A stretch of DNA of 34,871 bases. It comes from Bacteroidota bacterium. GTDB taxonomy: Bacteria > Bacteroidota > Ignavibacteria > Palsa-1295. The stretch is from assembly GCA_021324685.1 (NCBI GenBank), contig JAJPIQ010000014.1, forward strand, positions 1 through 34,871, read 5' to 3'. Positions within the stretch are counted from its first letter, which is position 1; the number at the start of each line of letters is the position of its first letter. Shown piece after piece: positions 6,892 to 31,582 of the stretch. The notes below the pieces were generated by a model. That model was not told the DNA's origin. It saw only the letters and a program-made list of their open reading frames with translations, and ran no database searches. The position numbers and the translations under genes were made by a program.

Positions 6892-8047
6892 TTACAGATC
6901 TTCGTCTGCGGTGTCGGTCACTTTTAGCTTGCCGCCCTCGAAGAGAAGGTAGGACTTCATAAATTCGGTGATATCTCCGTCCATCACTGCCTGGACGTCG
7001 GTCTTGGCGACTTTCGTCCGATGGTCTTTTACCATCGTGTAGGGCTGGAAGACATACGAACGGATCTGGGAGCCCCAGGTGATCTTTTTCTTGGAGCCTT
7101 CGATCGCGGCCAGCCGTGCTTCTTCGATCTCGCGGTTGATCGCAGCAATGCGAGACTTGAGCATCTTCATGGCCCGTTCGCCATTCTGGAGTTGGGAACG
7201 TTCTTCCTGGCACGCGGCGATCACCGTATGCTGGTTGCCCTCGAGGTCCGTATATTTATACGTGAGCCGGACCGCCGTTTCCACCTTATTTACGTTCTGG
7301 CCGCCCTTGCCACCGGAACGATACGTATCGCGCTGCAAAAAGGCCGGATTGATCACGATCTCTGTATTCTCTTCTTCGATGACAGGATAGGCATAGACGC
7401 TCGCGAAACTGGTGTGGCGGCGGGCATTCGCATCGTAGGGCGAAATGCGGACGAGGCGATGCACTCCGTTCTCGGTCTTGAGATAGCCGAACGCATTTTC
7501 GCCATCGATCTCGAGCGTGGCGGATTTAATTCCCGCCGCTTCGCCGGGCTGCTCATCGAGGAGGCGGACTTTGTAGCCGTTGCGCTCTGCCCAGCGGGTG
7601 TACATGCGCTCCAGCATTTCCGCCCAGTCGCATGCTTCCGTACCACCCTGGCCGGCATTGATCGTCAGGATCGAGTCCTTATAATCGTCCGGCTTATTCA
7701 GCATCACGGCGAGTTCCTGGGAGGCCAGATCGTTCGAAAGTTCCGAAAATTCCTGTGCCACCTGCGGGACGAGCGAATCGTCCTCGCGAGCGAACTCGAG
7801 GAGTTCTTCCGCATCGTCGAGGCGCGAACGGAGTTTCTGGAAATCGTCGCGCTCCTTTTTGAGGCGCGAAAGTTCCTGCATGATCTTCTGGGCTCTTTTC
7901 GGGTCGTCCCAGAATGGGGCCTGGCCGGATTCCTGCTCTAAGGCTTCGATCCGTCGTTCTTTGGGACCTAAGTCAAAGAGAGTCGCCGAGCTCTGCGAGG
8001 CGGGCGCGCAGATCGGCAATTTGGGTGGAGGTAATCTCGTTGGTCAT
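6892..8047 (-). CDS. prfB: Peptide chain release factor 2 (RF2), expressed by +1 programmed frameshift
   Basis: RF2 recognises UGA and UAA and triggers peptide release. The gene is in two frames. Codons 1-24 start at the ATG at 8047 and run to an in-frame TGA at 7975-7973. Skipping one T after CTT gives the second frame from 7974 to the stop at 6892, a product of about 384 aa. The peptidyl-release loop is intact as GGQ (about residues 248-250, in RSGGKGGQNVNK). The anticodon-like tripeptide reads SPY in 'VRISPYDANARRHTSF' where E. coli has SPF. An N-terminal ATG within the second frame (8019) is not the real start, because the 24-codon leader peptide is the conserved RF2 N-terminal helix. The frameshift normally autoregulates RF2: low RF2 favours shifting. 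Confidence 0.93.
7972..7978 (-). other. prfB +1 frameshift site (CTTTGAC)
   Basis: On the reverse strand the bases read CTT TGA C, the universal RF2 recoding heptamer: a Leu codon that slips on U, a UGA stop in the zero frame, and a following C that weakens termination. The upstream bases GAGCTCGGCGACTCT hold no AGGGGG-type internal Shine-Dalgarno stimulator at the usual distance. Confidence 0.92.
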
Positions 8048-8171
8048 AAAAATCAGGGCCGTAAACCGAGGAAATCCGGAATAAGATTCGCGGAATCGCA
8101 AAAAAGAAAACGGGGAAGCCCTTCGAGAAAGACACAGGGCGTTCCGGAATGCTCCTGGCGGAATAAACATC

Positions 8172-8235
8172 GAGCAGCGAGGCTGTAGAGCAGCGAGGCT
8201 GTAGAGCAGCGAGGCTGTAGAGCAGCGAGGCCGTG
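8172..8235. repeat. Four tandem 16-bp repeats
   Basis: The unit GAGCAGCGAGGCTGTA occurs at 8172-8187, 8188-8203 and 8204-8219 without change. A fourth copy at 8220-8235 has two differences (CTGTA becomes CCGTG). The unit length is not a multiple of three, so this is not a coding repeat. The arrays look like slippage products or a clonal marker. Confidence 0.92.
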
Positions 8236-8491
8236 CGATGCCAGTGAATCCACCCGGAGGGAGTGCAGGCATCCCTGACTGCACTCGGTACAAGGGAATA
8301 AAGAACCGTTTATATCCCACGTATCAGCGGGCACCCGCCTTGTGGACCGCTTACTTCCACTGTCCCTTGGCCTGCGGAGCTCCTCATGGGGAGGCCATGC
8401 TTGCGAAGCGCGGCAGTCCCTTCATGAGCGGCTCGGCACGGAGTTCCCATCGGAACCTCCTGAGACCGTCGGAGATCATCACGTGTTCCCA

Positions 8492-8505
8492 CGCAGCATG
8501 CTGCG
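8492..8505. repeat. 14-bp perfect palindrome
   Basis: CGCAGCATGCTGCG is fully self-complementary and sits between the arms of the 21-bp inverted repeat. It could be a protein-binding site or recombination point, or simply part of the repeat element. No nearby gene start depends on it. Confidence 0.6.
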
Positions 8506-8905
8506 AAGGTCCGGTGAAGTGAGGCCTGTAATTGGAATCAAGCGACAAGCGCCCTTTGGCTCACTGTTGGTTCTTTTTTCGTTGTGCTCCGGAAGCGCCT
8601 CTCGAAACTGGTAGAGCAAGACGGTTTATGAGACCTCCGCTCCCCGATGGAAGGATTGCTCATCGAGCCAGCACGGAGATACGTCACGTTACGTGCGATC
8701 GGCCTGCGGCTCGCGATTTCTCCTCCGATGTGAACCGCCATTTTCAGGCGGTTCCTTCCGTGTGTCTTTCTCGAAGGGCTTTCTGACACACCCGTGTGGA
8801 TCGCGTCATGCACCGACACCGGCGTATCATGCACCACGATGGGTGCCCATAAATAACTACAAATTTCGGGGCTGCGGAGTTCTTAATATAATGCAAATAG
8901 GTGAC

Positions 8906-31252: not shown

Positions 31253-31325
31253 GCCGGTGTAGCTCAGTTGGTAGAGCAGCTGATTTGTAATCAGCAGGTC
31301 GTCGGTTCAAGTCCGTCCGCCGGCT
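31253..31325 (+). tRNA. tRNA-Thr (anticodon TGT)
   Basis: The 73-nt cloverleaf has acceptor GCCGGTG/CGCCGGC (one T-G pair), D arm GCTCAGTTGGTAGAGC, anticodon stem GCTGA/TCAGC around TTTGTAA, and T loop TTCAAGT. The T stem GTCGG/CCGTC has a T-T mismatch at position 50-64. CCA is not encoded. First of three tRNAs; reads ACA and, by wobble, other Thr codons. A37 makes it a likely TrmO/TsaD substrate class. Confidence 0.92.
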
Positions 31326-31386
31326 CTTCTTCGTTCTACGTTAAAAGCCTCTGGGACTCACGACTTTTAACTCAGGACTAAAAAAA

Positions 31387-31469
31387 GGGCAGATACTCAA
31401 GTGGCCAACGAGGACAGACTGTAAATCTGTTGACGATAGTCTACGAAGGTTCGAATCCTTCTCTGCCCA
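31387..31469 (+). tRNA. tRNA-Tyr (anticodon GTA)
   Basis: This class II tRNA of 83 nt has acceptor GGGCAGA/TCTGCCC, anticodon stem ACAGA/TCTGT around CTGTAAA, a long variable arm between about 31430 and 31445, and T arm GAAGG-TTCGAAT-CCTTC. CCA is not encoded. It follows the first tRNA-Thr after 61 bp. Confidence 0.95.
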
Positions 31470-31487
31470 CACGGCCACGCGCCGAAG

Positions 31488-31560
<73 letters not shown>

Positions 31561-31582
31561 CTCTTTTCAAGAGTTCCCTCCC

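Follow-up and report, generated by a model that had tools for sequence, protein, structure and literature searches.

6S RNA has been described as a compact molecule of ~160-200 nt (PMC8414754; PMC8876501), a size that fits RNA polymerase. In B. subtilis, 6S-1 cores of 78 and 82 nt, whose arms are short, retain binding (at lower affinity), product-RNA templating and release (PMC8876501). Since such truncated cores run the cycle in vitro, there is room for variation in the outer parts of the arms, and an unusual length does not exclude an RNA from 6S membership. A longer 6S-like RNA, Ms1 of Actinobacteria, has ~300 nt and extra terminal hairpins (PMC9130861). Here we report on a 34,871-nucleotide stretch of DNA from a Bacteroidota bacterium (the window), in which the block at 8048-8905 very probably holds a 6S RNA (SsrS) gene, read on the minus strand from about 8855 to 8100, with enlarged arms and an intact core. 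The 6S core is the known part of this molecule; what is new is a greatly enlarged 6S RNA that is invisible to Rfam.

The block is flanked by a TPR gene and by prfB and lies upstream of the latter. On the minus strand at 7960-8048, prfB appears to begin with ATG 8048 and to contain the usual programmed frameshift CTTTGAC, so that the open reading frame listed at 6892-8019 is the downstream part of prfB. Elsewhere in the window, three tRNA genes (Thr-TGT, Tyr-GTA and Thr-GGT) occupy 31253-31561. The first-pass annotation had proposed BLASTN as a check on copy number, and had named a single genomic copy with no conserved structure as grounds for giving up its reading. The block is indeed a single copy in the 3.47-Mb source genome, and its inverted-repeat arm pair has no other close match there, but conserved structure is present, as described below. 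Against 60 relatives, BLASTN found homologues in seven genomes, all of the same family as the window. No plasmid relatives of the block were found. The neighbour is a TPR gene in the window, where a DUF885 gene comes after it, and also at loci L045 and L047; in sister genera the homologue lies beside coaE.

Models built from the copies, another step that the first-pass annotation had suggested, revealed the homology to 6S RNA. The sequence-only model R1, built from eight family members, represents the 3' half of the core (92 nt). Of 391 class genomes, 97 have a match to it, and each of these has exactly one. When 18 of the R1 loci were scanned against Rfam, 6S RNA was the sole family found, with six loci at 31-41 bits. 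A direct search with RF00013 added two further compact loci (47.1 and 38.3 bits), giving one compact class member at 47.1 bits, against a cut-off of 46.4, and seven at 31-41 bits. The 6S alignments shown for compact members span all 187 positions of RF00013, and the two compact loci tested with Pfam have zapA upstream and rny downstream. The core's 5' half, AAAGAACC ... GGGAGC ... CAGGCCTC, lies outside R1; its elements occur in the expected order at most of the R1 loci examined, which is an independent confirmation. RF00013 passes its cut-off in only one of the 61 genomes searched. R1 detects the RNA much more widely, indicating that 6S annotation is largely missing in the class.

For the structured model R2 we used 15 compact 6S RNAs, all of them from outside the window's family. 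R2 matches the window at 8576-8300 on the minus strand over its full length (model positions 1-170) with 41.5 bits and E = 4.8e-7, which is the only match in 35 kb at E <= 10, and the alignment holds a 117-nt apical stretch where the model has 32 positions. The RNAs of four sister-genus members score 73-77 bits with the same model. Rfam gave no RF00013 match in the window and only chance matches at E <= 10, and the sister-genus relatives had no direct match to RF00013, even at E = 10 or 1. An unfiltered R2 scan of the window returned a partial match only (11.7 bits), the whole-genome R2 pipeline did not recover the window copy, and in the larger relatives from the window's genus R2 matched fragments only; the insertions are probably too long for the span that the search permits. 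A search of 13 family genomes with RF00013 detected no other 6S RNA; the locus is a single-copy gene of its own and the only 6S RNA of its genome. Four family genomes (G001, G002, G011 and G012) yielded no confident 6S RNA by R1, R2 or BLASTN, and in these the RNA has either been lost or diverged further. G001 is nearly complete and still has no confident match.

Several features of the sequence place the RNA on the minus strand. An alignment of eight upstream regions revealed a promoter-like motif at 8857-8884, made up of AAGAACTC (8884-8877) and GAAATTTGTAG (8867-8857), which resembles the TAnnTTTG -7 element of Bacteroidota. In most family homologues AGAACTC, followed by AATTTGTAG at constant spacing, is found upstream of the right arm. 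The G-U pairs of the outer helices exist on the minus strand only, and a T-rich run, TTTTCTTTTTT (8109-8100), lies directly past the closing helix. Neither the promoter motif nor the G-U pairs fit a plus-strand RNA, which was therefore rejected. The predicted primary transcript of this enlarged, ssrS-like gene would start just after the promoter-like motif, at 8855, and end with the T-rich run, at 8100, both ends being read from the sequence only. A sigma-70 scan, which does not cover Bacteroidota-type promoters, found no promoter.

The repeats that had drawn attention to the block are real and all belong to a single RNA gene. The perfect 21-bp inverted repeat joins 8116-8136 with 8761-8781 over an outer span of 666 bp, extends to 24 nt at 96% (8116-8139/8758-8781), and is the outermost closing helix of the RNA. 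Among 500 dinucleotide-shuffled versions of the block, none had a perfect inverted repeat of 20 bp and the longest was 16 bp; blocks of equal size from other parts of the window reached 12 bp, which agrees with the initial impression that this block is more structured than its surroundings. The 16-bp tandem array spans 8172-8231 with 3.8 copies at 100% match; a repeat comparison gave one mismatch in the fourth copy. Also confirmed were the 14-bp palindrome CGCAGCATGCTGCG at 8492-8505 and the 23-nt hairpin GAACCGCC-N7-GGCGGTTC at 8732-8754, both of which form in the minimum-free-energy fold. According to the predicted fold, the tandem repeats, the palindrome and the 23-nt hairpin all sit in side branches.

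The minus-strand RNA can be followed from its closing helix inwards. Fold and covariation agree on helix P1, in which the right inverted-repeat arm is the 5' strand (8761-8781) and the left arm the 3' strand (8116-8136), with pair probabilities of ~1.0 except at the ends. Next to it is a 5' expansion (8613-8754) that differs in length between species and is predicted by the minimum-free-energy fold to form three side hairpins of the closing stem, including the one at 8732-8754. The inner closing helix P1b, which carries compensatory changes, pairs UUCCGGAG (8587-8594) with UUCCGGAA (8142-8149). P2, found class-wide beside the central bubble, pairs AAAGAACC (8569-8576) with GGUUCUUU (8300-8307) at a probability of 0.89-1.0, in accordance with R2. 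Alignment to RF00013 and R2 places the 5' side of the bubble at 8555-8568 and its 3' side, where 6S RNA has its -10-like element, at 8308-8328. On the apical side of the bubble, P3 pairs GGGCGCUUG (8546-8554) with CGGGUGCCC (8329-8337), as given by the R2 alignment and class-wide covariation; in the window's own single-sequence fold it is not favoured (probability ~0.06). The apical expansion (8374-8521), with several predicted hairpins including the palindrome, is bounded by conserved GGCCU (8522-8526) and AGGCC (8369-8373). The 3' expansion of the closing stem (8150-8286) is predicted to fold into a hairpin at 8261-8286 and a long tandem-repeat hairpin (8172-8231), to which each 16-bp unit supplies GCUG/CAGC pairs in the minimum-free-energy fold.

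Comparison between species supports these helices. The R2 structure shows double-sided changes in 12 of 21 pairs, a level that none of 500 shuffles reached, and sliding the partners destroys the signal. Among five species of the window's genus, P1 and P1b have double-sided changes in 9 of 30 pairs (0/500 shuffles), and 97% of the P1/P1b cells are paired compared with ~37-54% when slid. The 756-nt minus-strand transcript folds with z = -7.1 relative to shuffles, and the single-sequence fold gives P1, P1b and P2 at high probability without comparative input, P3 not being recovered. Fold, comparison and class-wide covariation together give a rod with a central bubble between P2 and an apical helix. 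The earlier suggestion of an undescribed structured RNA therefore holds in part: compensatory changes make the RNA a structured one and its enlarged form goes unrecognised by Rfam, but its core is that of 6S RNA.

We took the distance between the closing-helix ends as the size of the RNA. By this measure the sister genera have 379, 401, 403 and 446 nt and the window's genus 548, 579, 605, 650 and 666 nt, the last being the window; compact class members have ~208-250 nt in the Rfam alignments. The window RNA does not match the typical 6S length, which is usual for the family but not defining, and it is most likely a variant of more than three times the usual size that has gained side branches and kept its membership. 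We found no description of a 6S RNA of this size in the openly accessible literature. To the extent that the open literature shows, this is the largest 6S RNA described, and a precedent could exist elsewhere.

The size of the arms raises the question of whether the molecule still serves as 6S RNA, or is a large structured RNA of 6S descent whose enlarged arms outweigh the polymerase-binding core and which has taken on a new job. The arms do make up most of the molecule, and P1 is strongly conserved within the genus in sequence as well as in structure. However, conservation is highest in the bubble core, with BLASTN identity between species peaking at 97% (8518-8593), and no other 6S RNA was seen in these genomes, so that we regard a change of job as improbable. 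A class-wide core also weighs against an accumulation of functionless intergenic repeats. The 16-bp tandem repeats, which are species-specific and absent from the homologues, would fit such an accumulation, but class-wide conservation and compensatory changes refute it for the core and the closing helix; as an account of the whole block it is very unlikely, while the expansions themselves may still be of this nature.

The first-pass annotation had itself considered a non-autonomous mobile element or a dispersed regulatory repeat. A dispersed repeat is contradicted by the single copy per genome. A MITE-like element would be bounded by the inverted repeat, perfect over 21 bp and 666 bp across, yet there is one copy in the source genome and one in every genome with a match, the arms covary as an RNA helix that is kept between species, and the interior is conserved across the class; we give this origin almost no credence. 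Small protein-coding genes were suggested by several overlapping open reading frames of 80-115 aa in the block. Substitutions track base pairs instead, none of the frames stays open through the core in every one of the nine homologues, and the aligned stretches contain stops, in keeping with the original judgement that the block holds no believable gene, and coding is accordingly an extremely remote prospect. Identity with RNase P RNA or tmRNA was ruled out, since both genes lie elsewhere in the genome, and likewise away from this locus in the family genomes, and neither family has a match at the locus. In genomes G000-G006, RNase P RNA has ~425-496 nt (model 367) and tmRNA mostly ~440-500 nt (model 374). 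These larger RNAs in the genus suggest a general tendency to RNA expansion.

With a 6S RNA as the preferred reading, its mode of action can be proposed by homology. The central bubble of the rod would mimic an open promoter and hold the housekeeping RNA polymerase, and the polymerase-holding part would be the bubble (5' side 8568-8555, 3' side 8328-8308) between P2 and P3. The polymerase would copy a short product RNA from the bubble, P2 would unwind and the 6S RNA would be released. The product RNA is predicted to begin at a putative start opposite C8566 (5'-GUUGGUUCUUU...) and to continue into the 5' strand of P2. We infer that the enlarged RNA is expressed, binds polymerase and directs synthesis of a product RNA. 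In the window's genus side hairpins would have been added to the closing and apical arms, in part through tandem duplication, leaving the bubble core intact in an RNA that spans ~550-670 nt between its closing-helix ends. Since the arms can vary in their distal parts, the side hairpins are most simply explained as tolerated growth on parts that would not touch the polymerase. It is conceivable, though rather unlikely, that the expanded arms add a function, such as providing a dock for a protein, for several polymerases or for another RNA. If so, this 6S RNA would carry functional expansion segments, a concept familiar from ribosomal RNA. The tripled size, together with the intermediate sister genera, provides a natural experiment for telling the parts of 6S RNA that the polymerase constrains from those that can expand freely.

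OLE, GOLLD, ROOL and HEARO are large bacterial RNAs of elaborate structure, in a size class like that of the window RNA, and none of them has an Rfam match in the window. Ms1 resembles the window RNA in being 6S-like, longer than typical and equipped with extra hairpins. However, Ms1 binds the polymerase core and not the holoenzyme, whereas the window RNA is about twice as long and tied to true 6S RNA by homology; no sequence link between the two was found. Unlike described 6S RNAs, the window RNA has ~666 nt instead of ~160-200, bears long side hairpins in its closing and apical arms, escapes the Rfam model, and is placed between a TPR gene and prfB instead of zapA and rny. In other class members rny follows the 6S RNA. 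A search of six family genomes (G000, G001, G002, G005, G011 and G012, the window's own included) did not detect the N-terminal domain of RNase Y (rny), suggesting that the zapA-rny home was lost in the family and the gene relocated. With 6S RNA (SsrS, RF00013) the window RNA has in common the rod with a central bubble, the single copy, and the helix beside the bubble, here AAAGAACC/GGUUCUU, aligned to the RF00013 consensus cCuGAgCC/GGuUCaAgg. It also shares the GGG...CCC helix on the apical side and the GGCC and GGAAG motifs of the apical internal loop, and in its compact relatives the gene is adjoined by zapA, as is ssrS in E. coli.
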